This document shows, piece by piece, positions 8,542 through 43,783 of a stretch of 47,303 nt of DNA. The notes beneath the pieces were generated by a model. That model made no database searches, had not been told where the DNA came from, and worked only from the letters and a program-made list of their open reading frames with translations. Source of the stretch: Cellulosilyticum sp. (GTDB lineage Bacteria; Bacillota; Clostridia; Lachnospirales; Cellulosilyticaceae); contig JARKVN010000012.1 in NCBI GenBank assembly GCA_029851645.1, positions 1 to 47,303 on the forward strand, read 5' to 3'. The position numbers and the translations under genes are program-made. The stretch's first letter is position 1, and each line of letters opens with the position of its first letter.

Positions 8542-9286
8542 CTATTTTCCATTTAAGCTCTATTTTAGTAAAAAGTTCATCCTCTTTCTCCTCAAGGATT
8601 TGATGAACTGTCGTCAAGTGACGTGCATCATCTTGTATGACTTCACTTACAAGGCGTAAGCTGTTCTCCTTGGTTGCCTCTTTTTTGAAAAGCACTTTAA
8701 TATTTGAAATCTCATAAGCTGATAAAATCTCCTTAGGCAAGGCATCCACTGCCATGTCAATATACTTCACGTTATTGACATGGCGATTCATATCTATATC
8801 GCTATGTCTGACCTTAAAATGCTCTACATATTTAGGATTTTCCATTCTTAGAAAATCATCTAAAGGAATATTTTCTTCTAACTCCTTTTCTATGCCATAT
8901 ATATGATACTGAGCTTGAGACACTTTGACTGGTCGCCTCTCATCTATATCAATAAGCATAGCTGTTGATAGCCCTGAAGCTATGATATGCCCCTTTGAAT
9001 TTTTTATTTTAAATGCCCTATAGCCAAATAATTTTTTAACACCTATTATATCTGTTTCCACTATAATTGTTTCACGAAACCTTGGATACTCTACAATTTC
9101 TAAATCATACTTTAACAAAACCCAGATACAATTATTACGGATACCAGCATCTGTTTCTCCCAAAAAATCACTTTGTGAAACCACAACATCCCATAGATAA
9201 TTCATTAAAGATGAGTATTTACATCTATAGCTCATATCCACATCATAAATATTTATCGTATATGCTTTACTAAATTGATTGCTCAC
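8516..9286 (-). CDS. Acyl-ACP thioesterase (FatA/FatB family)
   Basis: This soluble 256-residue protein consists of two hot-dog folds and releases fatty acids from acyl carrier protein. The second domain carries DIDMNRHVNNVKYIDMA (about 163-179), the conserved Asn-His motif of the family. The first has YDVDMSYRCKYSSLMNYLWD. Bacterial members of this family occur in many anaerobic Firmicutes and set the fatty acids that are released. It is a single gene, convergent with and overlapping the AraC-type regulator. Its upstream region holds TATAAT and an imperfect inverted repeat at about 9338-9366. Confidence 0.88.
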   Translation of the reverse strand: MSNQFSKAYTINIYDVDMSYRCKYSSLMNYLWDVVVSQSDFLGETDAGIRNNCIWVLLKYDLEIVEYPRFRETIIVETDIIGVKKLFGYRAFKIKNSKGHIIASGLSTAMLIDIDERRPVKVSQAQYHIYGIEKELEENIPLDDFLRMENPKYVEHFKVRHSDIDMNRHVNNVKYIDMAVDALPKEILSAYEISNIKVLFKKEATKENSLRLVSEVIQDDARHLTTVHQILEEKEDELFTKIELKWKIAIGSYDKL

Positions 9287-9368
9287 GATTCAATCCTCCC
9301 CTACAAGGTCTACTTTGTATTCATTATACTAAATCAGCTCTCCCTTTAGTAGTATAAGCATTACCTTG

Positions 9369-10328
9369 TTATCTCTTACCTTTATCATAAACTTCTCCAA
9401 GAGCTCTTGGTGGATTGTTATTTTTAGAGAAGAAAATAAGAAGAATCATAGTTAGTATATAAGGTAATGTCATAATTAAATCTGAGAATGTACTTGGTAA
9501 TTCTAACATACCACTAATCATATACCCGCCTGATCTTGCAAATCCAAATAGAATACAAGCAATCAGAGTCGGTATTATCTTCCAGTTCCCAAAGATTAGT
9601 GCTGCAATCGCTAAGTATCCATAACCTACATAAAAGCTCGAAGAGAAGTTAGCTGAAATGGAATACGCAAAACACATTCCTCCCAGCCCTGCTAAGGCAC
9701 CTGAAATCATAACAGCACTAAAACGTATTTTAGCCACGTCTGCTCCACCTGCATCTACTGCATGAGGATTATCACCACAAGCACGTAATCTCATACCATA
9801 TCTCGTTTGGTAAAGTACATACCATGCAATAATAGCAATGATGATAATCATCACTTGAAATGGATAAATATCTTTAAATAATCCTCCAACAACAGGAAGC
9901 TCTGAAAGACCTGGAATAGAAAAACGTCCTAGTACCTCTAATACAAATTTAGAAGAAGGTTTACCAAAGATTACTGCATTAAACTGACTGGTTAAAAATC
10001 CTGTTAAAGCAATAGCCAAGATATTCATAACTACCCCGCTAATTACTTGATTCGCTTTAAACTTAATACATACAACTCCATGTAACATGGCATAAATCAT
10101 ACTTCCTAACATAGCAAAAACAACGGCAATATAGAATGACATTGATGCTAAAGCTGGCAAGAATTTCTGAGTGAGTATCACGGATAACGCACCTATAAAG
10201 GCCCCCATCCCCATAAATCCTTCAAGAGCAAGGTTCGTAATCCCACTACGTTCGCTATAAATACCTCCAATTGCAATAATAAATAGTGGTAACGCAAAGG
10301 CTAATCCATCAATAATGACTGTTTCCAT
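9369..10328 (-). CDS. ABC permease, BMP/nucleoside-type importer (second subunit)
   Basis: This 319-residue BPD_transp_2-type permease is hydrophobic throughout, with 8 or more membrane segments. IYSERSGITNLALEGFMGMGAF near the start and LRACGDNPHAVDAGGADV in the cytoplasmic loop are typical of the NupQ/YufQ subunit. It shares one base with the stop of the upstream permease gene, so the two are translated together. It ends the four-gene importer. Substrate is inferred only from family: nucleosides or related purine compounds. Confidence 0.88.
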   Translation of the reverse strand: METVIIDGLAFALPLFIIAIGGIYSERSGITNLALEGFMGMGAFIGALSVILTQKFLPALASMSFYIAVVFAMLGSMIYAMLHGVVCIKFKANQVISGVVMNILAIALTGFLTSQFNAVIFGKPSSKFVLEVLGRFSIPGLSELPVVGGLFKDIYPFQVMIIIIAIIAWYVLYQTRYGMRLRACGDNPHAVDAGGADVAKIRFSAVMISGALAGLGGMCFAYSISANFSSSFYVGYGYLAIAALIFGNWKIIPTLIACILFGFARSGGYMISGMLELPSTFSDLIMTLPYILTMILLIFFSKNNNPPRALGEVYDKGKR

Positions 10329-11503
10329 TATGCCTCCTCCTTCATTTGCTCATTATTCCTCTGTGCATTATTTACATGTTTGTTATTGTCTTCTGCCTCA
10401 TCTTTAATACGTTTGAGACGATATTTAATATAAGCGCCACATGCACTAAACAAGAGAATCAGCGCTGTAATAACGGATGCAATCTCTTGTGGCACGCCTG
10501 CTGCTGAACTCATATATGTACTGCCTTTACTAATAATCATAATCAGAAAGGCTGAAATCATACTACCAATAGGATTTGCATTACCTAGTAAAGATACAGC
10601 AATAGCATCATACCCTACTGATGAAAGGACTCTAGGTTGAATAGAAGTATTGTAACCCAAGTAGAAAGTTACCCCTGCTAAACCTGCTAGTGCTCCTGAA
10701 ATAAGCATCGCAATCACCATCGTACGTCCCACTTTAATCCCTGCATATCTTGCTGCTTTTTGATTTAACCCTACTGCTTTCATTTCGTAACCTAACTTAG
10801 TTTTATCTAAGATAAACTTAAGTCCAAAGGTAGCTATCACAGCTAAAATAATTCCTAATGGCACTTCTATTTTCAAGCCTAAGAATTCTACATTTTTTAA
10901 AGTCAAAGAAGCAGTTTCTCCTATTGCCTTTGACTGACGAGATACTGGATCTACATAAAACATATTAATAAAGAAACTCATCACATATTGGAAAATATAA
11001 TTCACCATAATACATGACACAACTTCATTGATATTAAAGCGATACTTTAAATAGCCAATAAGGCCACCTACCGCAGCCCCACATACAATCCCAATTAAAA
11101 TAACCATTGGTCTAGCGATAAAACTACTCATGTCACTATAACCTACTACAATCGTTGCAATAAATCCAGCTAAAAGCATTTGGCTGGAAACCCCTAAGTT
11201 AAATAGTCCTGCTTTAAATGCAACTGCTACTGCTAAAGCTGCAAAAACAAGAGGTGTTAAAGCATTTAAAAAGCTCATAAAATCTGTGAGCATTCCTTTA
11301 CCTCCTGCATAGGATGCCTTTGGTAAAATCCCTGAGCCCTGAAGTAGATTGTGATAAGCTCCTACTGGATTTTTTCCTATAACTCCAATAACAATTGCAC
11401 CTACAATTAAACTCATTAATACTGCAAATACAGGCACAATCGTTTCCTGGCGTTTTTCATCTCCTAAAAACTTGATGATATTTTGTTTGATGTTTGTTTT
11501 CAT
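10328..11503 (-). CDS. ABC permease, BMP/nucleoside-type importer (first subunit)
   Basis: This 391-residue multi-spanning permease is of the NupP/YufP type. It shows AFKAGLFNLGVSSQMLLAG and the coupling-loop stretch MKAVGLNQKAARYAGIKVGR, which in this family contacts the ATPase. It has an unusually charged C-terminal tail rich in Asn, Glu and Lys (about the last 25 residues). It lies 1 nt after the ATPase stop and overlaps the next permease by one base. Confidence 0.88.
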   Translation of the reverse strand: MKTNIKQNIIKFLGDEKRQETIVPVFAVLMSLIVGAIVIGVIGKNPVGAYHNLLQGSGILPKASYAGGKGMLTDFMSFLNALTPLVFAALAVAVAFKAGLFNLGVSSQMLLAGFIATIVVGYSDMSSFIARPMVILIGIVCGAAVGGLIGYLKYRFNINEVVSCIMVNYIFQYVMSFFINMFYVDPVSRQSKAIGETASLTLKNVEFLGLKIEVPLGIILAVIATFGLKFILDKTKLGYEMKAVGLNQKAARYAGIKVGRTMVIAMLISGALAGLAGVTFYLGYNTSIQPRVLSSVGYDAIAVSLLGNANPIGSMISAFLIMIISKGSTYMSSAAGVPQEIASVITALILLFSACGAYIKYRLKRIKDEAEDNNKHVNNAQRNNEQMKEEA

Positions 11504-11504
11504 T

Positions 11505-13034
11505 TTAAGAATGTACCCCCATCATATATTCTCCAACTTCCTTTGTTGTAAGTGATTTCGCTTCTTTAATTGCCTTAATTTCTCCATTATAAATGACACC
11601 AATTGTATCCGCACAGTTCATAACTTCTTCAAGTTCAAGAGAGATTAGTAGAATTGCTTTACCTTTGTTACGTTCTTCTATAATCTGTTCATGAATTCTT
11701 TCAATGGCACCAATATCTAACCCTCTGGTTGGCTGAACAAAAATAATTAGTGGTGTATCCAGCTCTATTTCCCTAGCAATAATTACTTTTTGCTGATTCC
11801 CACCACTCATGCTACGAACCTGAGATTTCACACCTTGTCCACTTCTAATATCATATTTCTCAATCATCTTGTTACCATAGGTATCAAATTCTTCTTTCTT
11901 TAAAACACCTTTTTTACAGAACTCTGGCTTGAAGTAATCTTTTAATACCGCATTTTCTGCTACTGAAAAATCTAATACAAGCCCATAAGTTTGTCTATCT
12001 TCTGGAATATAGGCGATGCCTGTTTCTGTACGCTCTCTGATATCCATATTAGTAATATCTTGATCATTTAAAATAATTTTTCCACTAGCTGCTGGTATCA
12101 TCCCTGCAATAGCATCTGCAATCTCTACTTGTCCATTCCCTGAAACCCCTGCGATAGCAAAAACCTCACCCCTATGAATAGAGAAAGAAACATTTTTTAC
12201 GACTTCAAATTGATTTTTATCTTTAACGATTAAGTTTTCTACCTTAAGCACTTCTTTTCCAAAGCTTGCTTCCTTTTTATCAAGTTCAAAGGTGACTTCA
12301 CGCCCTACCATCAGCCTTGCCATTTCTTTAGTAGATGTGGTTGCTACTTCGCACATATCTACTAACTTACCACGACATAAAACAGCACAACGGTCAGCTA
12401 CTTTTTTGATTTCTTCTAATTTGTGAGTAATTAAGATAATGGTTTTACCACTATCTCTTAAGTTCTCAATAATTTTTAGTAAGAACTCAATCTCCTGTGG
12501 TGTAAGCACTGCTGTTGGTTCATCAAAGATTAAAATCTCAGCATCTCTATAAAGCATTTTTAGAATTTCTACTCTCTGCTGAACTGATACTGTAATATCT
12601 TTAATAAGACTTGTAGGGTCTACTTCTAAACCATACTGCTTAGAAAGAGTTGCTACCTTTTCATTGGCTTCTTTTAAGTCTACGTATGGAAGGAAACCCC
12701 ATCTTTTCTTCATTGGCTCAATCCCTAGTACAATATTTTGTGTAATCGTATAGTCCTGAACTAATTTAAAGTGTTGATGCACCATTCCAATATTTAATTG
12801 GGTTGCTTCATTAGGTGAGGTAATATTAACTTTCTCACCACGAACAAAGATTTCACCTTCATCTGGTTCATACATACCGAAAAGCATACTCATAAGTGTA
12901 GACTTTCCTGCCCCATTTTCTCCTAAGATAGCAAGTATCTCGCCTTTTTTTATTTTTAATGACACATTATCATTGGCTACAATGCCAGGGAATCTTTTGG
13001 TAATATGTCGCATTTCTACAATATAATCGCTCAT
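11505..13034 (-). CDS. ABC ATPase with two nucleotide-binding domains, BMP/nucleoside importer
   Basis: This 509-residue protein is two fused ATPase domains, as in sugar/nucleoside (RbsA/NupO-like) importers. Domain 1 has Walker A GENGAGKST, a poor signature (VSVQQRVEILK) and Walker B IFDEPTAVL. Domain 2 has GVSGNGQ, the signature MSGGNQQK and IIFVQPTRGLDIG. Glutamine replaces the catalytic glutamate in domain 2, which is normal for this family. It lies downstream of the binding-protein gene with a hairpin terminator between, so its expression is probably lower than that of the binding protein. Confidence 0.92.
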   Translation of the reverse strand: MSDYIVEMRHITKRFPGIVANDNVSLKIKKGEILAILGENGAGKSTLMSMLFGMYEPDEGEIFVRGEKVNITSPNEATQLNIGMVHQHFKLVQDYTITQNIVLGIEPMKKRWGFLPYVDLKEANEKVATLSKQYGLEVDPTSLIKDITVSVQQRVEILKMLYRDAEILIFDEPTAVLTPQEIEFLLKIIENLRDSGKTIILITHKLEEIKKVADRCAVLCRGKLVDMCEVATTSTKEMARLMVGREVTFELDKKEASFGKEVLKVENLIVKDKNQFEVVKNVSFSIHRGEVFAIAGVSGNGQVEIADAIAGMIPAASGKIILNDQDITNMDIRERTETGIAYIPEDRQTYGLVLDFSVAENAVLKDYFKPEFCKKGVLKKEEFDTYGNKMIEKYDIRSGQGVKSQVRSMSGGNQQKVIIAREIELDTPLIIFVQPTRGLDIGAIERIHEQIIEERNKGKAILLISLELEEVMNCADTIGVIYNGEIKAIKEAKSLTTKEVGEYMMGVHS

Positions 13035-13106
13035 CGCTTATTCTCCTTTTACCTTCTGTTCTACCTGCACTTAAAAATATACATTTATATAAAAACATGT
13101 GTAAAA

Positions 13107-13157
13107 CGAAAAAAATGAGGGCCGTCTAAATTAAATGATTCAGACAGCTCTCTCATT
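13107..13157 (-). terminator. Intra-operon terminator after the binding-protein gene
   Basis: On the minus strand AATGAGAGAGCTGTCT pairs with AGACGGCCCTCATT (two-base bulge, one G-U), then seven T's follow. It lies between the BMP lipoprotein gene and the ATPase gene, a usual arrangement for making binding protein in excess. Confidence 0.75.
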
Positions 13158-13166
13158 ATTTTATTC

Positions 13167-14333
13167 CTATTTGTTACTTGGAAGACCTGTAAATGCTTCT
13201 GGTGTCATGCCATTAAAGTTTGCAGCTGGAACAACTGTACCATCTTTTACAAGGTTATAAACTTCTTCTATTTTTGCTAATGTATCTTCTGAAAGTTGGT
13301 GACGCCCTTCTTCTTTTACATAACCTGTTGAGTCTGTATCTGCCTGAAGAAGTTCATTTGCCCCTTTGAAAGTACCTGCTTTAATTTCTTCAAGTACTCT
13401 TTCTACGTTAGCATCCATTACTTTTAAAGTAGATGTTAAGATAATATTGGAATCACCATTTTGTCCATCATTAAACTGGTCAACGTCACAACCAATTACT
13501 TTTACATTACCAGCTTCTTTTGCAGCTGTGAATACACCGTTACCAGCACCACCTGCTGCTACAAATAAAACGTCACACCCTTCTTTGATTAAAGTAGAAC
13601 CGATTACCTTAGCTGTTGCTTCATCAGCGAAGTCTCCAACGTAGTTCCCCCCCACATTTGCATTGGTCATATCTGTTCCTGCATAAGAAGCAAGTTCTAC
13701 AATTTCTACATTTTTACCATATACTTCATTAGCGTAGTTTACACCACTCTCGAATCCAAATTGGTAGTTAACATTTGATGGGAAGGCAACCCCATTTACG
13801 ACAGCAACTTTGTTTGTTTGTGTTTCAAGAGCCGCTGCTACACCAGCAAAGAATCCACTTTCTTGCTCAGCAAATAACATAGAATATACGTTGTCAAATA
13901 CTGTTTGATCGCCTACTGCTGCTGGTTCTGAGTCTACAAGGATGAATTTTTTATCTGGATTTTCGCTAGCCACTTGTGAAATCCCTGCAAATTGGAACCC
14001 CGGTGTTACAATAACATCGTAATCTGCTACGATATCACTAACAGCTTGTACAGCTGCTGTTGTATCTCCAGATGGTTCTTGAATCGCATTTACTGTGCTA
14101 CCTGGATTGTTTTCTATGAATTCTAAAATCCCATTGTAGTTGTTTTCATTAAAGTTACCATCATCTACACCTGTAATACTTGTTACAATAGCAATTTTTA
14201 ATCCGTCTTCAGCCCCTTGAGTTTGTCCTTCTGTCTTTGTTTCTTCTGCTGGAGCTGTATTTCCACCACAACCTATTAAAGTTGTCATAGCTAAAAGTCC
14301 TGATAATACTAAACCTGTTAATCTCTTTTTCAT
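13167..14333 (-). CDS. BMP-family substrate-binding lipoprotein
   Basis: The start at 14333 has GAGGAG about 9 nt upstream and gives a standard lipoprotein signal ending in LIGCGG (lipid-modified Cys about residue 22); a longer in-frame start at 14366 lacks the signal layout. The mature part is a type 1 periplasmic-binding fold of the BMP/PnrA family: GLKIAIVTSITGVDDGNFNE, VIVTPGFQF, KFILVDSEPA, FVAAGGAGNG and VIGCDVDQ are in order. Known members bind nucleosides. It is the second gene of the operon, 81 nt after the secreted protein gene. Confidence 0.92.
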   Translation of the reverse strand: MKKRLTGLVLSGLLAMTTLIGCGGNTAPAEETKTEGQTQGAEDGLKIAIVTSITGVDDGNFNENNYNGILEFIENNPGSTVNAIQEPSGDTTAAVQAVSDIVADYDVIVTPGFQFAGISQVASENPDKKFILVDSEPAAVGDQTVFDNVYSMLFAEQESGFFAGVAAALETQTNKVAVVNGVAFPSNVNYQFGFESGVNYANEVYGKNVEIVELASYAGTDMTNANVGGNYVGDFADEATAKVIGSTLIKEGCDVLFVAAGGAGNGVFTAAKEAGNVKVIGCDVDQFNDGQNGDSNIILTSTLKVMDANVERVLEEIKAGTFKGANELLQADTDSTGYVKEEGRHQLSEDTLAKIEEVYNLVKDGTVVPAANFNGMTPEAFTGLPSNK

Positions 14334-32452: not shown

Positions 32453-34369
32453 TTATCCTAACTTATCATATGAAAAATGACTAAATTTCCCTGTAATCTC
32501 CTTCTCTTTTCCATGAGCATATACCCCTACCATAGCACCTGTAAAACGCTTTCCTTCTGTATGCCCCTCATCACAAAGATAATCTACATAAGGTAGTTTA
32601 CCTACCTCTTTCCAATTAACCCCATCCTCACTGTAATAAAAACTTCTTTCAAAGCACTTTGTATCCATACGTAATTTTAGTGATTTTAAGAAGGGCAATT
32701 CCAATTCAAAATGTCTCTTCTCCTCTGGACTTATCCATTCACTCACTGCTAAAAGATAGCCTTCCTCTTCATTTGGCTGACCATATACCCCAAATTTGAG
32801 ATAAGTATTTTCATCATAATACCCTGTTAACCCTAAATTTTGTCCTTCTAATAATTGTTCTATTTCTACGGTAACACTTACGCTAAAGCAAAAATCCTTT
32901 TGTCTTTGAAGCACCACACTTCTACACGCTACATCATTTAAGTCTTTTGTATCCCCTTTAAGTAATAGTTTTCCTCCCTTTAAAAGATATCCCTCTTTTT
33001 TAGGCGAACGTGGAAATACCCATTCATGCCCCAGCTCTTGAATTCCAAATCCATCTTCAGTTACTTCTTCCCACTTATGTTCCTTTAGGTTTGGTTTCCT
33101 TTGAAGTACACTTGGGCCCTTTAATCCATTAACAATAGGCCACCCCTCTTTTGTCCAAGTAATCGGATCCATTGCTGTCTCACGTCCTAGAATTGTTTTA
33201 CCTTCTAGTGGTCTTCCACATAAATAGACCATATACCATTCTCCATTTTGAGTCATAACAGGCTTGCCATGACCAGCTCTTTGTATCACTGCTAACTTAT
33301 CACTTTGGCGCATAATGGGATTATAAGGACAAGGCTCATAATTGCCCTTTAAGGGTTTGGAACGAGCAACAGTAATACGGTGTCCCATTCCTGTTCCACC
33401 TTCTGCCATAAAAAGATAATAGTATCCATCCTTTTTCAAAAGATGAGGCCCTTCAGGAGCACGTTTTTGGTCCCCATACCATAATAATTCTGGCTCTGAA
33501 AGCTTCTTCGTTCCATCTTGACTGATTTCAAAAATTCTAGCACCACGGTTCAGAAGCATATAACGCTTACCATCTTCATCTGTGAAAATTGAAGGGTCAA
33601 TACCATCTTCATCTATAAAGGTTGGCTCACAGTAAGGGCCTTCTGGTTTATCAGATGAAGTTACCATTTGTTTACGATAAACTGTCCCTTCATCATTCAT
33701 TCGATAAGTTGCTGTAATATAAAAACGACCTTCATGATAGGAAATATCTGGTGCCCAGTACCCTCTTCCCCCCTCTAAATCATCTAAGTATGCCCACTCT
33801 GGACGTGTAATAGCATGACCAATGACCTTCCAATGAATTAAATCTTTAGAATGTGAGATGGGGATACAAGGGAAAAAAATAAAAGAAGAGTTGACCATAT
33901 AATAATCTTCCCCTACACGCACAATAGATGGATCGGGATGCATACCTGTACGAATGGGATTACGATACATTTCCTCTAAAGATGTCCCTACAACTTGTCT
34001 AAAATAATCTTCTGCTTCTTGGTGTCCTAGTTCATGTACAATATCATAAGGCGTCTTGCACTCTTTATCACCTTCTACTGGGGATAAACCTACTTTCTCT
34101 ACTAAGTATTTTAAAACTGAAACGTTGCCTGCTTTTGCTGCGTAATGAAGTATTGTTTGATGTTTATCATCTCTCTCATTCATGCTTGCTAGAGAATACT
34201 CAACAATATATTTTACAAGCTCAAAATTCCCAGTAGCTGCTGCCAAAAAAGGAACCCACACCCCATTATGATCCTTAGTGTGAATTGCCCTAGGACTATG
34301 CCTTAAAATTTCTTTAAGCCACTCTAAATTTTCCTGCTCTACTGCTAATAAAATATCTTTATCTCTCAT
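32453..34369 (-). CDS. Ankyrin-repeat/GH43 glycoside hydrolase fusion
   Basis: The first 130 residues of this 638-residue protein are about three ankyrin repeats (FLAAATGNFELVKYIVEY, QTILHYAAKAGNVSVLKYLV, KTPYDIVHELGHQEAEDYF). A five-bladed GH43 catalytic domain follows with all three acidic residues visible: Asp146 in HPDPS, Asp258 in GIDPSIF and Glu306 in APEGPHL, plus WAPD at 205-208. The C-terminal about 190 residues form a beta-sandwich like the GH43_C2/DUF1349 domain of beta-xylosidases. There is no signal peptide, so it should act inside the cell on imported xylo- or arabino-oligosaccharides. The ATG at 34369 follows GGGAGAT. It is divergent from a truncated GH3 gene. Confidence 0.88.
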   Translation of the reverse strand: MRDKDILLAVEQENLEWLKEILRHSPRAIHTKDHNGVWVPFLAAATGNFELVKYIVEYSLASMNERDDKHQTILHYAAKAGNVSVLKYLVEKVGLSPVEGDKECKTPYDIVHELGHQEAEDYFRQVVGTSLEEMYRNPIRTGMHPDPSIVRVGEDYYMVNSSFIFFPCIPISHSKDLIHWKVIGHAITRPEWAYLDDLEGGRGYWAPDISYHEGRFYITATYRMNDEGTVYRKQMVTSSDKPEGPYCEPTFIDEDGIDPSIFTDEDGKRYMLLNRGARIFEISQDGTKKLSEPELLWYGDQKRAPEGPHLLKKDGYYYLFMAEGGTGMGHRITVARSKPLKGNYEPCPYNPIMRQSDKLAVIQRAGHGKPVMTQNGEWYMVYLCGRPLEGKTILGRETAMDPITWTKEGWPIVNGLKGPSVLQRKPNLKEHKWEEVTEDGFGIQELGHEWVFPRSPKKEGYLLKGGKLLLKGDTKDLNDVACRSVVLQRQKDFCFSVSVTVEIEQLLEGQNLGLTGYYDENTYLKFGVYGQPNEEEGYLLAVSEWISPEEKRHFELELPFLKSLKLRMDTKCFERSFYYSEDGVNWKEVGKLPYVDYLCDEGHTEGKRFTGAMVGVYAHGKEKEITGKFSHFSYDKLG

Positions 34370-34525: not shown

Positions 34526-35647
34526 TTGCCTAACCTATATAGTGATAGTGGTATCATTAATAATATGGCATGGGGTGTAGAGAAGTTAGATGTTCCAGAA
34601 AGAGTAGCTTTGGCAGTCAATGCAGGAACAGATATAATTGGGGATACAAACGATGTTTGGTCTATGAAAGAAGCTTATAAGAGATCATTAAATAGTTCAT
34701 ACTATGAAGATAAAGAAATTCCATATGGCTTTACAAAGGAGAATGTAACACTAACAGAGTCGGCAATCAATCAAGCCAATGAACGTTTATTAATAGAAAT
34801 GTTTGACCTAGGATTATTTGAAAATCCATATAAAGACCCATTTATAGCAAAAGAAACTGTGGATAATGAAGCAAATTGGAACTTAGCTTACGAAGCGCAT
34901 CAAAAATCAGTAGTATTGCTCAAAAACGAAGATCAAGTCTTACCATTAACTCAAGAAAAATTAGAAAACAAAAAAGTATATATTGAATACTTTGCTCAAA
35001 GTGCATCTGAAGATATCACAGCAGAACTAAGAAAGAAATTAACTCATCAATACAATATAGAAGTAACCCAAGATTATAATAAAGCAGATTATGCACTTCT
35101 CTTCATAAATCCTACTTCTGGAAATTACTTCTCAGCTACACAAGGTTATCTTGAATTAGATATTTGTGAAAATAAAGTAGTCTGTGACGTAGATGAAGTA
35201 GGTAGACCAATATCAACTACTCATGAAGAAACCACTTTACAAAATGCAGGAAAAATTAAAGAAATTTCTGAAGCAGTTAGAGCAAATGGTGGAAAAGTTA
35301 TTTCTAATGTTAATTTTACACTAGCTTGGATGCTAGGAAATGTAGAGCCATACTCTGATGCTGTTCTAGCTGGGTTTGATACATATGTAGATGCTACATT
35401 AGATGTTATTATGGGTAAATATAATCCTACTGGAAAAATGCCTATTACACTACCCAAGGATGATAGCGTCCTTTGGGTAAATGCAGATGGCGTATGTATT
35501 TCTCCAAATGATGTACCTGGCTATTTAAAAGATAACTATATGCCAGATTCAATGAAAGATGAAAATGGTAAAGCTTATGCCTATAAAGACTCAACAGGTA
35601 ATTATTATGAATTAAACTTTGGTCTTTCATATGTTGAAAAGAAATAA
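34526..35647 (+). pseudogene. N-terminally truncated GH3 beta-glucosidase-type gene
   Basis: The 373-codon frame opens with NLYSDSGIINNMAWG, which corresponds to the catalytic nucleophile region (SDxG) of GH3 enzymes, usually 250 or more residues into the protein. It continues with VPERVALAVNAGTDII, AHQKSVVLLKNEDQVLPL (linker to the C-terminal domain), the nucleotide-like GH3_C domain, NPTGKMPITLP and the usual C-terminal NFGLSYVEKK. The (beta/alpha)8 barrel with most sugar-binding residues is absent; only 145 non-coding bases separate it from the divergent GH43 gene. The only start is a TTG without a good ribosome site. The rest of the frame is intact, so the deletion looks fairly recent. 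Confidence 0.8.
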
Positions 35648-35719: not shown

Positions 35720-37897
35720 CTACAAATCACTTTGCTTAAAGTAATTGTTCATGTATTCCACTGCTTCTCTATCTGTCATTATCCCTCTAACAAAATTTTT
35801 AACTCCTAACCCTATAATATGTTCTACCTTCTTTAAGTTAAGTAATTTACCATTTGGATAATGTCTTGGCCTTATTCCATCTTTAAAAGATTCCTTAGCA
35901 ACCTTTTGCCATGGATATATACTTAAAATATCAGAATTTTCATAGGTACAAGCACAGGGTGAAGTCCCACCTAACAAACTAATTTGAGTGGCAATTTCGT
36001 CACTATATACCCATTTAAGAAACTGTTTAATTTCCTCAATTTTTTGAGTATACTTTGACATACCTATTACACCTCCACCTAATAAGGGCTTGTTTCCTGG
36101 AACCGCCATATAACCTAAATGATGAGAAATATTACTATGCGCTAGAGACGATATGTGATTCATAAACACAATAGCCATAGCTGTCCTATTCTCACCTAAA
36201 GACCTCACGACATCACTCCACCAATTTCCCTTGATATGCTCACTAATGTTAAAATCTGCTATATATTGATTTAGGACTTCTATTGCTTCTTCCTCATTTA
36301 ACCTTACATGATTGCCAGTAAGATCAAAAATGCCATATCCTTTTTCTATATAACGCATTAAAAAGTCACATGCTAAGATAAGAGAATTCTCATAAATACA
36401 TCCCATCCCATACTCTGTTGGAGAATTAATGTTCTCCTTCTTAGCAAAGAATTTATTAATTTGATGGAGTTCTTCAAATGTAGTTGGTAATTCTAGTTCT
36501 TTCCTAAAAATTTCATAATACATACGCTTTATAGTTGGATTCTCAAAATAATCTTTTCTGTAGAAAAGCATTTCTACACTAGGATCAAAAGGTAGTGCAT
36601 AAGGTATTCCTTCCACAAAAGAATACCTTTCATATAAATCATCTATAAATTTATCTACTGTATCTTGCAAAGTATTTCCCAAGCATTCTAAACTCTTAAA
36701 TGTACTTGCACCAAACCAAGATAGCCATGCCATGTCAAATCTTATTAAGTCATAATGTTGATTGAGATTAAGGTTAGTCAATATCTCATAAATTTCTTCT
36801 TGCGGTAAAATTGAGAGTTTTACTTCTATCCCTGTAATTTTCTTAAAGTGTGGTACTAATCTTACAAGAGCATCTGTTGTAGGTGATGGCAATGTAAGTA
36901 TTGTTATTTTTCTTTCTTCAATCTCATATTCAAAACCTTTAAATTCAAATAAAAAACCTTTATTACTTAGCACTTCCCATCTCTTATCCAAATCATCTTC
37001 CTTAGAACTAAGTAACTTCTCACAACTCTTAATACCCAATTGCTGATAGTCCAATTGATAATATTTAATCTGTTCACTTTCACCATACCTTACTGGACTT
37101 ACACATATAATCTGAGGCTTAATGCCTTTACCAGCAAAATAACTAGCTGATTTTATATACTGTAACTTTTCAATATCTGATACAACAATAACTTCAGGTG
37201 TCATCTCTTCAAAAAACTCAAAAGCTTTTTTATATCCCTTATTATAAGATGCTTGTACATGTTGAATAGTTACTACTCTACTTTTGTCTGTTTCTTGCTT
37301 TAGTGCTTTATACAATATATTCTCGCAAGAAAAATTCAACTTGTCTGTAAATATACCTATATGGTTATACCCTTTATTTTCAATCCATTCTCCTATATCT
37401 TTTCCCATTGTTTCATAGTCAAAACCTATGTACTTCTTAGCGCCTTGAGGTTCTCTATTAACAAAAATAATTCGATCTTTATTCAAATAACTTAAGTTGT
37501 AGTAAGCCTCCACTTGTTGCAAGCTAGATATTGTAATAATTCCTACTACTCTTACAGATGCAATTTCCTTTAGTATCTCTATTTCTCGTGTAGGTATATC
37601 TCCTGTTGTATAAAGTTTAACTTTATATTCTAATACTGTTAAATATTTTTCTATAGCTGTATAGAAGTCACAAAAATGTCTAGAAGTTATATCAGGCAGT
37701 ACAACTGCAATGATTTTCGTTTCACCTTGTCTTAATGATTGTGCTTTCTCATTAATATGATATCCCAATTTTTCTGCTGCATCTTTTACTAATTTAATTT
37801 TCTCTACACTCACATTTCCTTTTCCATTTAAAACATTTGATACCGTTCCATGCGAAACACCTGCAACTTTTGCAATATCCTTAATTGTAGGTAACAT
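35720..37897 (-). CDS. LacI-type regulator fused to an ABC solute-binding-protein domain
   Basis: This 725-residue protein has three parts. Residues 1-60 are a LacI DNA-binding head (TIKDIAKVAGVSHGTVSNVL, then a hinge helix about AQSLRQG). Residues about 61-325 are the usual LacI sensor (IIAVVLPDITSRHFCDFY, NHIGIFTDK, YYQLDYQQLGIKSCEKLL). Residues about 329-725 are a complete SBP_bac_1-like fold (KITILTLPSPTTDALVRL, YDLIRFDMAWLSWFG, GIPYALPFDPSVEMLFYRKD, PTTFEELHQI, GGGVIGMSKYTQ, FLKWVYSDE). There is no signal peptide or membrane span, so the binding-protein part is cytosolic and probably a second sensor. It is the last gene of a same-strand run from 43539; two related palindromes before that run are its likely targets. 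Confidence 0.88.
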   Translation of the reverse strand: MLPTIKDIAKVAGVSHGTVSNVLNGKGNVSVEKIKLVKDAAEKLGYHINEKAQSLRQGETKIIAVVLPDITSRHFCDFYTAIEKYLTVLEYKVKLYTTGDIPTREIEILKEIASVRVVGIITISSLQQVEAYYNLSYLNKDRIIFVNREPQGAKKYIGFDYETMGKDIGEWIENKGYNHIGIFTDKLNFSCENILYKALKQETDKSRVVTIQHVQASYNKGYKKAFEFFEEMTPEVIVVSDIEKLQYIKSASYFAGKGIKPQIICVSPVRYGESEQIKYYQLDYQQLGIKSCEKLLSSKEDDLDKRWEVLSNKGFLFEFKGFEYEIEERKITILTLPSPTTDALVRLVPHFKKITGIEVKLSILPQEEIYEILTNLNLNQHYDLIRFDMAWLSWFGASTFKSLECLGNTLQDTVDKFIDDLYERYSFVEGIPYALPFDPSVEMLFYRKDYFENPTIKRMYYEIFRKELELPTTFEELHQINKFFAKKENINSPTEYGMGCIYENSLILACDFLMRYIEKGYGIFDLTGNHVRLNEEEAIEVLNQYIADFNISEHIKGNWWSDVVRSLGENRTAMAIVFMNHISSLAHSNISHHLGYMAVPGNKPLLGGGVIGMSKYTQKIEEIKQFLKWVYSDEIATQISLLGGTSPCACTYENSDILSIYPWQKVAKESFKDGIRPRHYPNGKLLNLKKVEHIIGLGVKNFVRGIMTDREAVEYMNNYFKQSDL

Positions 37898-37961: not shown

Positions 37962-38642
37962 TCAGTATACTTCTATATTTCTTACACACTGTACTTTTTT
38001 AAGGATTTCCATGACATCTATATATTCTGCCTTTTCTTTAATTTCTAAGTCAAATAATCCTACTACCTTTTCCTCATTAGACGTTAATATTTCTAAATTT
38101 ATAACCTTAAAATGATGATACTTTACATAGCCTAAAAATACACCAATATCTTCAACCTTGTCTAACTCAACATACAAACTAATGAAATTTTCATGATGTG
38201 ACACTCTTCCGCCGAATCCATGTAATAAAGACATCGCACTAAAAATCATTATACATCCTAAAAATGCTCCTGAGTAAAACCCCACTCCTACAGTTAATCC
38301 TATACAAGCTGATGCCCATAAGCCCGCTGCAGTAGTTAAGCCCTTTACTTTATTCTTTCCTATTACCATAATTGTTCCCGCACCGAGAAATCCTATTCCA
38401 CTAACCACTTGTGCCCCCATCCTTGTAGGATCTCCCTCACCATAAAGCTGCACAATATACTGGTTTGTAATCATGACCATTGCAGCTCCTACACAAACCA
38501 CCATATAAGTTCTAAATCCAGCTGGTCGATTTTTTCTTCCTCTTTCAACACCTAGAACTCCCCCGAATATCAACGCTAGTGCTAATCTAACAAATGCTGA
38601 TAACGGATTAATCTCGTATAATATTCCTTGAAAATTTTCCAT
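37962..38642 (-). CDS. MgtC/SapB-family membrane protein
   Basis: This 226-residue protein has four or five N-terminal membrane spans with the family signatures GGVLGVERGRKNRPAGFRTY (about 27-46), QVVSGIGFLGAGTIMV and GLTTAAGLWASACIGLTVG, followed by a soluble ACT-like C-terminal domain (about 150-226). MgtC proteins are linked to magnesium limitation, pH and phosphate homeostasis. It lies between the diesterase-like gene and the LacI-type fusion on the same strand, and its upstream gap contains a half-site resembling the operators near 43.7 kb. Confidence 0.88.
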   Translation of the reverse strand: MENFQGILYEINPLSAFVRLALALIFGGVLGVERGRKNRPAGFRTYMVVCVGAAMVMITNQYIVQLYGEGDPTRMGAQVVSGIGFLGAGTIMVIGKNKVKGLTTAAGLWASACIGLTVGVGFYSGAFLGCIMIFSAMSLLHGFGGRVSHHENFISLYVELDKVEDIGVFLGYVKYHHFKVINLEILTSNEEKVVGLFDLEIKEKAEYIDVMEILKKVQCVRNIEVY

Positions 38643-38730: not shown

Positions 38731-39567
38731 TCATTTAACCTTTTTATCTCTATACTCAGCTAATAAGCTTGGCCAATCCGTTTGGATAATATCAATTCCC
38801 TTATCTATTAAAATACCCCATCCCTTATCTGGATGCTCTACAATAGATACATTATCGTCACAACCTGCATATAAATCAGTAAAACAATCTAATGTTATAG
38901 CATTGACCCATACTAAAAGTCCCTTTTCCTTAATGTCTTGAATAATCTCATCCTTAAAAAATTCATGTTCTTTAGTCTTAGCAATTAGTTCTACTGCAAC
39001 AGTATTAATATTCTTATAGCTTAATACTTCCTCAATTTCTTCTAATTTGTAAACAATTGGCATAAACATATATCTTGCACCCTTAGCATCTAATACTTTT
39101 AAAACTTCTTCTTTTGCTGGTGCTTTAAGAAGAAGTTGCTCTGCTACATCATATTTATCCAAAAAGTCTATTAACTCTTCAAAATCATCCCATGCACGAT
39201 CTATGTTGTATAGTTCACCGTCTTTAAAACTCTTTATTACTTGGTCAAGACGCTCTACTTTAAAACTTGTTTTTGATCCAATTTCATTATAGTAATATAA
39301 CTCATCGATTTCTCTTGAGGACAATGTACGAATATTAGCTTCAATATTTAAATTCAATTTTTCTGTCCCATCATGAAAAACATAAAATACACCATCTATA
39401 GATTTAATAACATCCATCTCTGCCATGTCACCATTCATCTTAAAGGCTGTATTAAATGCATTAACTGTATTTTGTATAATATTAGCCCCACAGCATCCTC
39501 TATGTACAGCAATTAAATGTTTTTTTTCTTCTAACTTTTGATATAATAAGCGACTATTCCTACTCAT
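38731..39567 (-). CDS. Glycerophosphodiester phosphodiesterase-like protein
   Basis: This cytosolic TIM-barrel protein of 278 residues is related to GlpQ/UgpQ, which split glycerophosphodiesters into sn-glycerol 3-phosphate and an alcohol. Visible are HRG near the start, QNTVNAFNTAF (family ENT.AF, with Gln for Glu), AEMDVIKSIDG with the Glu/Asp metal pair, VFHDG, and DIIQTDWPSLL at the end. The strand where GlpQ has its third metal-binding glutamate reads LLLKAPAKEE, with no acid at the usual place, so metal binding may differ. The start at 39567 has AGGGG about 8 nt ahead. It follows the permease by 61 nt in a transporter operon. Confidence 0.75.
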   Translation of the reverse strand: MSRNSRLLYQKLEEKKHLIAVHRGCCGANIIQNTVNAFNTAFKMNGDMAEMDVIKSIDGVFYVFHDGTEKLNLNIEANIRTLSSREIDELYYYNEIGSKTSFKVERLDQVIKSFKDGELYNIDRAWDDFEELIDFLDKYDVAEQLLLKAPAKEEVLKVLDAKGARYMFMPIVYKLEEIEEVLSYKNINTVAVELIAKTKEHEFFKDEIIQDIKEKGLLVWVNAITLDCFTDLYAGCDDNVSIVEHPDKGWGILIDKGIDIIQTDWPSLLAEYRDKKVK

Positions 39568-39628
39568 AATCATTCCCCTTACTCTTTCAATCATTTAATA
39601 TCTTTCTTCTTAATCTTTATAAATTATT

Positions 39629-41362
39629 TTATCTATTCATTATCTTCTTATAAACTTTCTTAATTGGCTCCTTATTTCCATAAACCAAATAAAGAATTAG
39701 ACTTGAAACAATCATAACTACAACTGCATATACTAAAGTTAATGCAGTATTATCTGCCGACCCTGTGGAATCTGTAAGATTCTTAATATATACACCAAGA
39801 GGTTGAAATAATGGGTGATATAAAAATACTGATAAATCATAATCAGTTAAAAGGGTATTAAAATTTAATGCAAAAACAGCTAATGTTGATGGTAATATAA
39901 TTGGTAATATAATCTTAAAAAATGTATAAACACTATTAGCTCCCAAGTTCTTTGCTGCTTCTTCTAAAGAATCATCTACCGAAAAAAATGCTGCTTTGAT
40001 CATTCGTAATGTAAAAGGTATTTTTACAATCAAATAAGCTAAGAACATAATGATCAGCGTTCCTGTTAATACTTGATTACCTACAAACCACATCGGCTTA
40101 TCAAAGGTTATAATCATACCAATAGCAATTAAAGTACTTGGTAGTAACCAAGGAATCAGCAAACTATATTCTAAAATATCTGCCCATTTGTTTTTATACT
40201 TAGTAATAAGACGTGCTGCAAGTAATACTAATAAAATTACTCCAAATGTAGCTAATGCCGAGTAAATAATACTAACTAGTACTGGTTTATAAGCACTTTC
40301 ATTCATCAATAAATACTTGTAGTTTTCAAATGAAAAGCTACTAAAACTTAAGGTTCTTGTTGCTATACTTTTAGCATCTGTAAATGAAAAAAGTATAATG
40401 AGCAGAACAGGTAATGTATAAATTACAAATAATATATACGCAATAATATGCATAATGATATTAGCTAGCTTATTGTCTATTTTTTGTTTAACCATTATCG
40501 TCTTTACTTTTGAAACAGACATATAATTTCCTTTTTTCTCAAAGTATGTCATAATCATAAGTAAGATAATTGTTGCTATTCCTAAAAAAATCGAAAGCAA
40601 AGTAGCTAAATCTCTTGATCCTGCACTTTTAGAAAAAGTTAAAATCATAGGTGTAATCGTTTGAAAATCACGCCCCCCTACCATTAGTGGTGCAGATGTT
40701 GCTCCTAGACCTGTTAAGAATATTAGAATAGTTACAGCAAAAATAGAGGGTAATAAAGTTGGTAAGACAACTTTGCGTAATGTTTCAAATGTAGATGCTC
40801 CCATATTTTTTGAAGCCTCTATAGTCTGATAATCCACTTTTCTTATAGCATTAGATAAAAAAATCAAATGATTAGATGTACATGCAAAAGTCATAACAAA
40901 TAGAACTGCCCAATATCCTTCAAACCATCCAGTATTCATATTAGGTAATATCATAGAAAGAATATTGTTTATGTATCCACCTTCACCATAAATAAACTTA
41001 TAACCTGATACAAGAACAACTCCACCGTAAATAAGTGTTGTCATATAACCTAACTTTAAAATACGCGAACCCTTTATATCAAAATACTCTGTAATTAAAA
41101 CCAACAAAATCCCTACAATATTTACTGTTATAGATAAGGATATTGCTAATATAAAACTATTCATTAAACTCTTCATCGCCCTAGGTGAATTGAACAACTT
41201 AACAAATGGTTCGAAGGAAAATTGTCCTTTTTCAAAAAACGTGGTATAAACTACGTTTAAGTTAGGCAAAACTAAGAAAGACAATATAAACCATAAAAAA
41301 AACAATCCAAGTAAATATATAGGTAAATATTCCATTTTAAAAAGTTTCTTTTTTCTTTCCAT
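39629..41362 (-). CDS. Fused double permease of an Fbp/Afu-type ABC importer
   Basis: This 577-residue protein is two permease units in one chain, about 12 spans. Each half has an EAA coupling loop: EASKNMGASTFETLRKVVLP (about 181-200) and EAAKNLGANSVYTFFKIILP in the second half. This layout is typical of the iron/hexose-phosphate/aminoethylphosphonate branch (FbpB, AfuB, PhnV-like). It lies between the ATPase gene (12-nt gap) and the diesterase-like gene. Confidence 0.88.
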   Translation of the reverse strand: MERKKKLFKMEYLPIYLLGLFFLWFILSFLVLPNLNVVYTTFFEKGQFSFEPFVKLFNSPRAMKSLMNSFILAISLSITVNIVGILLVLITEYFDIKGSRILKLGYMTTLIYGGVVLVSGYKFIYGEGGYINNILSMILPNMNTGWFEGYWAVLFVMTFACTSNHLIFLSNAIRKVDYQTIEASKNMGASTFETLRKVVLPTLLPSIFAVTILIFLTGLGATSAPLMVGGRDFQTITPMILTFSKSAGSRDLATLLSIFLGIATIILLMIMTYFEKKGNYMSVSKVKTIMVKQKIDNKLANIIMHIIAYILFVIYTLPVLLIILFSFTDAKSIATRTLSFSSFSFENYKYLLMNESAYKPVLVSIIYSALATFGVILLVLLAARLITKYKNKWADILEYSLLIPWLLPSTLIAIGMIITFDKPMWFVGNQVLTGTLIIMFLAYLIVKIPFTLRMIKAAFFSVDDSLEEAAKNLGANSVYTFFKIILPIILPSTLAVFALNFNTLLTDYDLSVFLYHPLFQPLGVYIKNLTDSTGSADNTALTLVYAVVVMIVSSLILYLVYGNKEPIKKVYKKIMNR

Positions 41363-41374
41363 AAACTATTCACC

Positions 41375-42388
41375 TCAATACTGTAAAATATCTACAGGGT
41401 TTAAGCATATTTTCACTTGTGCCCCTTTTTCATAGACATTTCTTCCATCTTCTTTTTCAATACTTTTGATAACTGTATCTCCGATTTTTAGGTAATACTT
41501 CATATACATCCCATAGTATTCCACATCGGTTACTTCAGCATCTAAAATTACATACCCTTGCTTTATATCTTTATCAACAATATTAACTTTTTCAAGTCTT
41601 ATATAACTCTTCTTTTGGACATCCAATCTATTTGCTACCTGTTCATTAATCTTTTCTACAATGAACTTACTTAATAAATTAATATCGCCGATAAAATTAC
41701 ATACAAACTCTGTAGCAGAATGATTATAAATTTCTTTAGGTGTACCCACTTGTTCAATGACACCTTTATTAAATACTGCAATACGATCAGATAATGTTAG
41801 TGCTTCTTCTTGGTCATGCGTTACATAAATGGTTGTAATTCCAAACTTTCTCTGTAAATCTTTTAACTCATTTCTTAATTGTATACGTAATTTTGCATCT
41901 AGGTTAGAAAGTGGTTCATCTAAACATGTAATTTCTGGTTGCATTACTAAAGCTCTAGCAATAGATACCCTCTGTTGTTGTCCTCCAGATAACTCCGAAA
42001 CTTTTTTCATGAGCTGCTCATCTGTTAAATCAATTTTCTTAGCAATCATTCTAACCTTCTCATCTATATCTTTTTTAGAAAGTTTTTTAATCTTTAATCC
42101 AAATGCAATATTATCGTATACATTCATAGTTGGAAATAACGCATAGCTTTGAAAAACCATCCCTATATTCCTTTTACCTATAGGGGTATGGGTAATGTCT
42201 ATATTATTTATTTTTACACTTCCTTTACTTGGTTCAATAAATCCTACAATTGTTCTTAATGTAGTTGTTTTTCCACATCCCGATGGTCCTAAAAATGTAA
42301 AAAATTCTCCTTCTTTTATCGTTAAATTAATATCCTTTAAAGCAACAAACTCTCCATAGCGTACTTCTATATCATTTAATTCAATCAT
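41375..42388 (-). CDS. ABC ATPase of the Fbp/Afu-type importer
   Basis: The start at 42388 (MIELNDIEVRYGEFVALKDI) has AAGGAGGG upstream; an in-frame ATG 30 nt earlier contains that ribosome site and is not preferred. The protein has 337 residues: Walker A GPSGCGKTT, signature [15 protein letters not shown], Walker B ITCLDEPLSNLDAKL, His switch YVTHDQEEALTLSD, and a C-terminal TOBE-like domain (about 240-337). This matches FbpC/PotA-type ATPases. It lies between binding-protein and permease genes. Confidence 0.92.
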   Translation of the reverse strand: MIELNDIEVRYGEFVALKDINLTIKEGEFFTFLGPSGCGKTTTLRTIVGFIEPSKGSVKINNIDITHTPIGKRNIGMVFQSYALFPTMNVYDNIAFGLKIKKLSKKDIDEKVRMIAKKIDLTDEQLMKKVSELSGGQQQRVSIARALVMQPEITCLDEPLSNLDAKLRIQLRNELKDLQRKFGITTIYVTHDQEEALTLSDRIAVFNKGVIEQVGTPKEIYNHSATEFVCNFIGDINLLSKFIVEKINEQVANRLDVQKKSYIRLEKVNIVDKDIKQGYVILDAEVTDVEYYGMYMKYYLKIGDTVIKSIEKEDGRNVYEKGAQVKICLNPVDILQY

Positions 42389-42453
42389 TACTTGTCCCTC
42401 CTTGGTTATGTTATTCAAAAAGGGATCTGTAATAAACCGAACCCCTTCTTTAC

Positions 42454-43539
42454 TTATTGCATATATTGCAATTCTATCTTTTCACACCAATCCTCCATAT
42501 TTTGAGCTACAAATTTCCAATCTATCATTTGTGGCTTATAATTTTCACTCACAAAACGTGCTTCTTCTGATGCTAATGCCATAGCACCTTCATTTGCTGG
42601 CATCGTAGAAAATTCTTGAGCCCATTCACCTTGTACCTCTTCACTACCAAACCAATCAACAAATGCTTTTGCCGTTTCTAATTTTTTTGTTCCTTTTACA
42701 ATTGCAATTTGTTCAACTGCATATGGTACCCCTACTTCTGGATTTACCATATCAGTATTTACTCCATATTGCTTTTCTCTATCTGCAATTCCACTTGACC
42801 ACATTTGTCCAAAATGATTGGTTTCATTCGCAAGGCTTACGTATAGGTCTTCTCCCTGTACAGCTGGAGTTCCATAACTAAAGAATTTTCCAATCTCTTT
42901 CCAACCTTCTTCTGATATGCCAAGCTCACCATTAGGATCTTGATAACGAACTAAAATTCCTGCAATAACATTACGTACAGTTGATCCACCTAATCCTGTC
43001 TGTACTTGATATAATCCTCTAAATGCTTCATTATTCCATAAATCAGGCCAATCTTGTGGTGCTGTTTCCTTAGTATATAAATCTGCATTATATACTAAGA
43101 CAATTGCTTGCTTTACAAGAGCATGATAATAACCTTCTGGATCATTTAAACCTTCTGTTACTTCTCCTGCCCATACAGGGACATATTGTTCTAACAAGTC
43201 TTCTTCCTTAAACTGCTCATAATTCATTGTATTTAATCCAAACACTATATCTGCAATAGGGCTGTTTTTCTCTGCTATTAGTCTATTAGCAATTTCTCCT
43301 CCCCCTGCGTCTACATACTCAATATCAAATCCTTCTTCTTTAGCCTTTTCCTTTAACCACTCGCCTCTACCATCTGCTACAGAGTTTGAATAAATAATAA
43401 GTGATTGGCTTTTATTAGACGTTGTGTTACTAGCCCCTTCACCTGTTGTTGTTTTAGGTTCTCCCCCACATCCAACTAAAGCTATACTTGTCAAAACTGT
43501 CATTGCTAAAACTTGCCTGGCTATCTTTTTAAAATTCAT
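42454..43539 (-). CDS. Fbp/Afu-type substrate-binding lipoprotein
   Basis: The signal ends in ALVGCGGEP (lipid-modified Cys about residue 24), followed by a Thr/Ser linker and a type 2 binding fold of 361 residues in all. LIIYSNSVADGRGEWLKEKA, DAGGGEIANRLIAEKNSPIA, DIVFGLNTMNYEQF and WPDLWNNEAFRGLYQV follow the AfuA/FbpA pattern. The paired tyrosines that bind ferric ion in FbpA are not evident, and YQVQTGLGGSTVRN looks like an anion-binding loop. Together with a neighbouring diesterase and a PhoP box this favours an organophosphate or phosphonate ligand over iron; the ligand is inference. First gene of the operon. Confidence 0.88.
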   Translation of the reverse strand: MNFKKIARQVLAMTVLTSIALVGCGGEPKTTTGEGASNTTSNKSQSLIIYSNSVADGRGEWLKEKAKEEGFDIEYVDAGGGEIANRLIAEKNSPIADIVFGLNTMNYEQFKEEDLLEQYVPVWAGEVTEGLNDPEGYYHALVKQAIVLVYNADLYTKETAPQDWPDLWNNEAFRGLYQVQTGLGGSTVRNVIAGILVRYQDPNGELGISEEGWKEIGKFFSYGTPAVQGEDLYVSLANETNHFGQMWSSGIADREKQYGVNTDMVNPEVGVPYAVEQIAIVKGTKKLETAKAFVDWFGSEEVQGEWAQEFSTMPANEGAMALASEEARFVSENYKPQMIDWKFVAQNMEDWCEKIELQYMQ

Positions 43540-43623: not shown

Positions 43624-43652
43624 ATAATACTATATTTTTTGGAACGTGTCAA
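43624..43652 (-). promoter_or_regulatory. Transporter-operon promoter with a LacI-type operator over the -35 box
   Basis: On the minus strand TTGACA (43647-43652), a 17-nt spacer, then TATTAT (43624-43629). The -35 box is part of a CG-centred imperfect palindrome, TTGACACGTTCCAA (43639-43652). That is the form and place of a LacI-family repressor site. Confidence 0.78.
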
Positions 43653-43769: not shown

Positions 43770-43783
43770 TTAGAACGTTCAAA
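43770..43783. promoter_or_regulatory. Second LacI-type operator
   Basis: TTAGAACGTTCAAA is a near-perfect CG-centred palindrome that shares the half-site TTNGAAC with the site over the -35 box 131 nt away. The pair would allow DNA looping by a LacI-type tetramer or two dimers. Confidence 0.65.

Follow-up and report, generated by a model that had tools for sequence, protein, structure and literature searches.

A LacI-type regulator fused to a solute-binding domain in Cellulosilyticum, and the widespread, apparently undescribed family to which it belongs, for which an operator code and a regulon are predicted

A stretch of 47,303 nucleotides from Cellulosilyticum sp. (contig JARKVN010000012.1, positions 1 to 47,303; hereafter the window) encodes a protein in which a LacI-type DNA-binding head is followed by two domains of kinds that bind ligands, raising the question of what such a protein senses and which genes it controls. 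The gene (35720..37897, minus strand; protein P0001) has its start codon at 37897 and its stop at 35720, with 725 codons and no internal stops, unlike the plus strand over 35720-37897, which is full of stops. The Pfam scan placed LacI at residues 4-49 (E 6e-14, above cutoff), Peripla_BP_4 at residues 63-262 (under its gathering score) and SBP_bac_1 at residues 339-635 (E 7e-13) together with SBP_bac_8. The LacI-type RbsR and CcpA models of NCBIfam match residues 4-245, under their equivalog cut-offs, and the matches to NCBIfam and to LacI and CcpA in the PDB extend to residue 245-312 or thereabouts. An AlphaFold2 model, for which the input alignment consisted of 67 sequences, has a mean pLDDT of 90.2 and contains an HTH (residues 5-56), a PBP1 domain (61-314) and a solute-binding (SBP) domain (329-722) in that order.

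Taken together, these results delimit an HTH with hinge helix (residues 1-60; 37718..37897, minus strand), which has the recognition helix VSHGTVSNVLN and the highest conservation in the protein; a divergent LacI-type PBP1 domain (residues 61-316; 36950..37717, minus strand), recognized by NCBIfam, AlphaFold2, fold matches and identity comparison; and a class II solute-binding domain of the SBP_bac_1/MalE type (residues 329-725; 35723..36913, minus strand). The LacI-type HTH and hinge helix followed by a PBP1-type core are the hallmarks of the LacI/GalR family, and the first 330 residues align with CcpA (3oqo) over 336 columns (TMt 0.74). Residues 321-724 fit solved sugar-type SBPs (Foldseek, VIA), best of all 5iai (Z 42.5, rmsd 2.4, 378 residues). 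The protein has no signal peptide, its N-terminus being the HTH, and no membrane segment (maximum 19-residue hydropathy 1.53); with a DNA-binding N-terminus and no membrane segment, it is not an exported SBP. A preliminary description of the locus had proposed one unbroken frame comprising a LacI head, a LacI sensor domain and, at residues 329-725, a full solute-binding fold lacking a signal peptide. The frame, the coordinates and the domain boundary are all correct, the three expected domains appear in the predicted structure, residues 329-725 do match a solute-binding family (SBP_bac_1), and a cytosolic location is supported.

The assembly of the window genome is fragmented (148 contigs, 86% complete), a state in which two genes might be joined by a sequencing or assembly error, but dozens of genomes, complete E. 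coli plasmid records among them, encode full-length relatives at 31-43% identity in which the three domains likewise form one uninterrupted frame. An artefact is therefore extremely improbable and was rejected, and the frameshift or stop near residue 325 that the preliminary description had considered is excluded by more than 70 loci from other genomes in which the architecture is equally unbroken. Within the order to which the window genome belongs, 13 of 295 sampled genomes (window genome included) have a strong match, mostly full length. At least 472 candidate loci in the genome collection encode relatives, some matching through one half only; the best 80 of these at least 472 loci are almost all full length and belong to Paenibacillus, Bacillus and its relatives, Klebsiella, Raoultella, Proteus, Providencia, Gilliamella, Frischella, Testudinibacter, a Treponema metagenome-assembled genome and many Clostridia, where the preliminary description had proposed to look for the architecture. 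The higher groups with relatives of this kind, here called LacI-SBP, are Clostridia, Bacilli, Enterobacterales, Orbales and Pasteurellaceae. No paper on LacI-SBP fusions, on MgtC-GDPD-LacI sets or on PhnP-MgtC-permease sets was found in the open literature. This result and the full-length relatives support the earlier surmise that the class exists uncharacterised in databases: LacI-SBP combines known parts in a widespread, apparently undescribed family, for which both an operator code and a regulon can be predicted.

In E. coli, LacI-SBP is present in 46 of 5426 complete genomes and is on plasmids in 44 of the 46; a full-length plasmid copy is 37% identical and is labelled 'extracellular solute-binding protein'. 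One such plasmid (NZ_AP027681.1, locus L026) has an MBL-MFS-MgtC / LacI-SBP module at 8849-14175, and E. coli from poultry, pigs and humans carries the module on plasmids, a distribution suggestive of a nutrient module that spreads horizontally. Weaker matches in the plasmid collection, from Rhizobium and other genera, were rejected as members of the family because they match through the LacI head only.

Trees of the head and of the SBP domain, both midpoint-rooted (the rooting is an assumption), agree with each other (distance correlation r 0.86), and the fused SBPs cluster together, separate from the standalone SBPs of adjacent transporters. Because of this agreement and separation, the simplest reading is that LacI-SBP arose by one old fusion, and repeated capture of an SBP from the adjacent transporter was rejected on the same grounds.

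In the window, the regulator gene is the last in a run of genes on one strand with intergenic gaps of 12-88 bp. The run begins with an exported ABC solute-binding lipoprotein of the SBP_bac_8/6 type (42454..43539, minus strand; Pfam, NCBIfam), the solved relatives of which are named as binders of iron compounds, pyridoxal phosphate and 2-aminoethylphosphonate, and continues with an ABC ATPase of the PhnT2/PotA type (41375..42418, minus strand) and a two-domain ABC permease of the PhnU2/Pot type (39629..41362, minus strand), both identified by Pfam and NCBIfam. Next are a glycerophosphodiester phosphodiesterase family protein with GDPD and DUF4996 domains (38731..39594, minus strand; Pfam, PDB relative 3i10) and, directly upstream of the regulator, an MgtC/SapB family membrane protein (37962..38642, minus strand; Pfam, NCBIfam). 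Elsewhere in the window, a GH43 beta-xylosidase (32453-34369, minus strand) has the unusual combination of a C-terminal concanavalin-like domain with N-terminal ankyrin repeats (residues about 7-110), and a GH3-like orf with a TTG start (34526-35647, plus strand) has the C-terminal GH3 domain only, its N-terminal catalytic domain being unmatched; it may be a truncated gene.

The association of the regulator with such genes recurs in 81 loci. Within six genes of the regulator, a transporter is found in 74 of the 81, a phosphodiesterase (GDPD or PhnP-like MBL) in 63 and MgtC in 33. When 740 near genes were compared with 382 far genes (at least seven places away) on the same contigs, GDPD was encountered 36 times near and once far, MBL 40 times near and never far, and MgtC 32 times near and once far. 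The other 18 of the 81 loci lack a nearby gene labelled as GDPD or PhnP-like hydrolase, and five of these 18 have no labelled transporter either, some lying on short contigs. The transporters near the regulator are unrelated to one another (Phn/Pot ABC, sugar ABC, nucleoside MFS), as are the hydrolases, since calcineurin-like phosphoesterases, inositol monophosphatase or HAD phosphatases replace or supplement the GDPD and PhnP-like enzymes in some loci. Enteric loci have genes for a PhnP-like metallohydrolase, a nucleoside-symporter-like MFS protein and MgtC transcribed divergently from the regulator. Because unrelated transporters and unrelated phosphoesterases surround one regulator, phosphodiester scavenging would be their common theme, and we infer from the enzyme families that the substrates of the regulons are phosphodiesters; MgtC and the phosphodiesterases suggest a class of ligand without identifying the ligand. 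A 353-amino acid protein with no Pfam match is encoded 3′ of the regulator in several Lachnoanaerobaculum loci (L066:12205-13266). More distant fusions (L112, L113, L116, L108 and L111), 25-31% identical to the window protein, adjoin ribose-type ABC importers, GFO/IDH oxidoreductases, TIM-barrel isomerases or URO-D family proteins, so the architecture is not confined to a single regulon.

Almost every locus has an importer gene close by, and because SBPs normally dock on permeases, the SBP domain might act through protein-protein contacts, tethering the regulator to a partner such as a transporter. SBPs dock on the outer face, however, whereas the fusion protein has neither a signal peptide nor a membrane segment, and the SBP domain is conserved even though the partner transporters are unrelated and include an MFS protein that has no SBP partner. 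Such a role is very improbable.

Which DNA sites the regulator recognizes was approached through palindromes in the intergenic DNA around LacI-SBP operons, from which an operator motif was derived. The word GAACGTTC is 42-fold enriched in operon-proximal intergenic DNA, and the preferred word differs with the recognition helix: GAACGTTC occurs 19 times at loci with an SHG helix (0.35 expected), TAACGTTA seven times at loci with an SQG helix (0.09 expected) and AACCGGTT four times at loci with an AQG helix (0.07 expected). When helix classes were shuffled over 37 sequence clusters, the observed operator agreement was reached in none of 20000 trials, a p-value that is optimistic inasmuch as the words were picked from the same data, while the contrast between classes stands. 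The predicted operator thus covaries with the recognition helix. In its 14-base form, TTKGAACGTTCMAA, a site with at least 12 of 14 matches is present in 42 of 45 SHG loci (which include close relatives and are not all independent), and 60 sites were counted against 0.23 expected from the reversed-sequence control. The exact sequence TTGACACGTTC[AC]AA is found 34 times in 31 loci (0.02 expected), mostly directed at the first gene of the operon. Roughly half of the intergenic copies are followed, at a distance of 16-18 bases, by a -10 box with 4 or 5 matches, an arrangement in which the operator contains the -35 hexamer. The sequence footprint is therefore a palindrome with a central CG near putatively regulated promoters, although many of the predicted sites are asymmetric toward the TTGACA side, making the intrinsic binding preference uncertain.

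Two candidate operators lie upstream of the transporter-GDPD-MgtC-regulator operon of the window. O1, TTTGAACGTTCTAA (43770..43783, no strand assigned), contains the only exact copy of the core GAACGTTC in the 47 kb window. O2, TTGACACGTTCCAA (43639..43652, minus strand), overlaps the -35 box of the best promoter match, a sigma-70-like TTGACA-17-TATTAT (11/12; 43624..43652, minus strand), a position from which repression may be predicted. There is no operator in the 64 bases directly upstream of the regulator gene, so the regulator gene, as the final member of the operon, is probably transcribed from the operon promoter and would thereby control its own expression. One-mismatch matches in the genome of the window number 12, as against 10 in the reversed-pattern control, and no further regulon sites are claimed from them. 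In some Bacilli (L033, L054 and L055), a TTGACACGTTCCAA site has no recognizable -10 box; occlusion of the -35 box is accordingly not universal, and these sites suggest either a roadblock or an intrinsically asymmetric operator.

As for which domain senses the ligand, the three parts of the protein have diverged to very different extents: relatives share 61-78% of residues with the window protein over the head, 31-47% over the SBP domain and 18-32% over the PBP1 domain, and mean column entropy is 0.89 bits in the HTH, 2.09 in the SBP domain and 2.63 in the PBP1 domain. The preliminary description had envisaged a cytosolic sensor integrating two ligands, that is, PBP1 and SBP domains that each bind a different ligand and both switch the operon. 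The PBP1 domain is indeed full length, has a confident predicted fold and still matches CcpA, RbsR and LacI, and a pocket could exist in it; if it keeps its own ligand, a two-ligand decision would govern a phosphodiester-scavenging regulon, with a helix-to-operator code that is readable from sequence. Yet it is the least conserved part of the protein, its only invariant positions in 67 sequences are P68 and E105, and the usual effector signatures of LacI proteins (VxxDR, the R of RxxGF, and GFDD) are not retained when it is roughly aligned to a single canonical paralogue. The cytosolic location thus stands, while the integration of two ligands is disfavoured and appears unlikely. A single sensor, predicted to be the SBP domain, fits better, and the PBP1 domain is probably a dimerisation scaffold or a degenerate sensor.

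Within the clade of the window protein, R386, S440, N580 and G609 of the SBP domain are near-invariant, whereas the equivalents in the distant LacI-SBP clade are M, Q or T at 386, mostly G at 440, mostly S at 580 and W at 609; the sampled members of that clade with informative flanks adjoin ribose-type importers and sugar-type enzymes. This is the pattern expected if the four residues line the ligand cleft, a position predicted from conservation, and if specificity changed with the regulon. The strongest rival on the identity of the ligand is a sugar or polyol: the inducer would be free of phosphate, and the phosphodiesterase and MgtC genes would be regulated for another reason. Most of the nearest solved folds are sugar binders, the distant members have the sugar-type neighbours described above, and a polyol is a conceivable product of phosphodiester cleavage. 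Against this, the association with phosphodiesterases is strong and is built of unrelated enzyme types, and Arg386 and the glycine at position 609 set the clade of the window apart from the distant one. A sugar or polyol inducer is a minority possibility, albeit a more credible one than a second ligand.

The fusion protein is probably a cytosolic, autoregulated repressor that has the SBP domain as its sensor and induces the uptake and cleavage of phosphodiesters. In this mechanism, the LacI head would bind operators of the TTKGAACGTTCMAA type, the footprint of which is seen in many genomes, before the importer-phosphodiesterase-MgtC-regulator operon, and the bound regulator would occlude the promoter, in the case of the window at its -35 box. 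The middle LacI/PBP1 domain would mainly pair the monomers and relay the signal. The C-terminal SBP domain, presumably acquired long ago from a sugar-type ABC importer, would close on a cytosolic ligand, whereupon the operator would be released. To judge by the regulon content and the clade-specific Arg/Ser/Asn/Gly set, the ligand is most likely an imported phosphodiester or a product of its hydrolysis, and the outcome would be induced uptake and cleavage of phosphodiesters.

Among known systems, LacI-SBP resembles the LacI/GalR repressors (CcpA, RbsR, PurR, LacI) in its HTH and hinge helix, PBP1 core, palindromic operator with central CG, apparent repressor placement and autoregulation, but differs in the extra SBP domain of 400 residues and in the divergent PBP1 domain without the usual effector signatures; we know of no LacI/GalR operator with its predicted operator sequence. 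The C-terminal domain has the same complete fold as class II sugar SBPs (5iai, the trehalose/maltose-binding protein 1eu8, SmoF, UgpB; Z 34-42), unlike which it has no signal peptide, is fused to a DNA-binding protein and is cytosolic. The Ugp-UgpQ system imports glycerophosphodiesters and possesses a phosphodiesterase, and Ugp is Pho-regulated; LacI-SBP operons share this logic of importer and GDPD but have varied importer types, frequent MgtC and LacI-SBP as a local regulator. Btr/YbbB of Bacillus subtilis is an activator that joins an AraC HTH to a siderophore-binding Peripla_BP_2 domain and regulates the matching importer. It has in common with LacI-SBP the fusion of a DNA-binding head to a binding protein of the ABC-importer type, but its head, its class of binding protein, its siderophore ligand and its activating role are different, and the Pfam scan found neither AraC HTH nor Peripla_BP_2 in the window protein. 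SgrR and DsvR, which are HTH + SBP_bac_5 regulators, are likewise cytosolic transcription factors with a C-terminal SBP sensor, but they have an HTH family of their own, an SBP of the SBP_bac_5 class, no PBP1 domain and other target genes (PMC13060122); the Pfam scan of the window protein at E 1 found LacI and SBP_bac_1/8, and neither the SgrR-type HTH nor SBP_bac_5. Given this precedent from different domain families (PMC13060122), joining an SBP to a DNA-binding head is not unique in principle.

These results offer a hypothesis at the level of function for a large family that is annotated as 'extracellular solute-binding protein' but whose domains are those of a cytosolic transcription factor. 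With the operator code and the phosphodiesterase/MgtC neighbourhood, its regulon can be predicted, and the copies in Klebsiella, in Proteus and on E. coli plasmids are easily tested. The LacI-SBP loci point to a little-known pathway of phosphodiester scavenging and may have implications for what MgtC-type proteins do. In terms of protein evolution, the family appears to be a case in which one ligand-binding module was demoted after a second was added.
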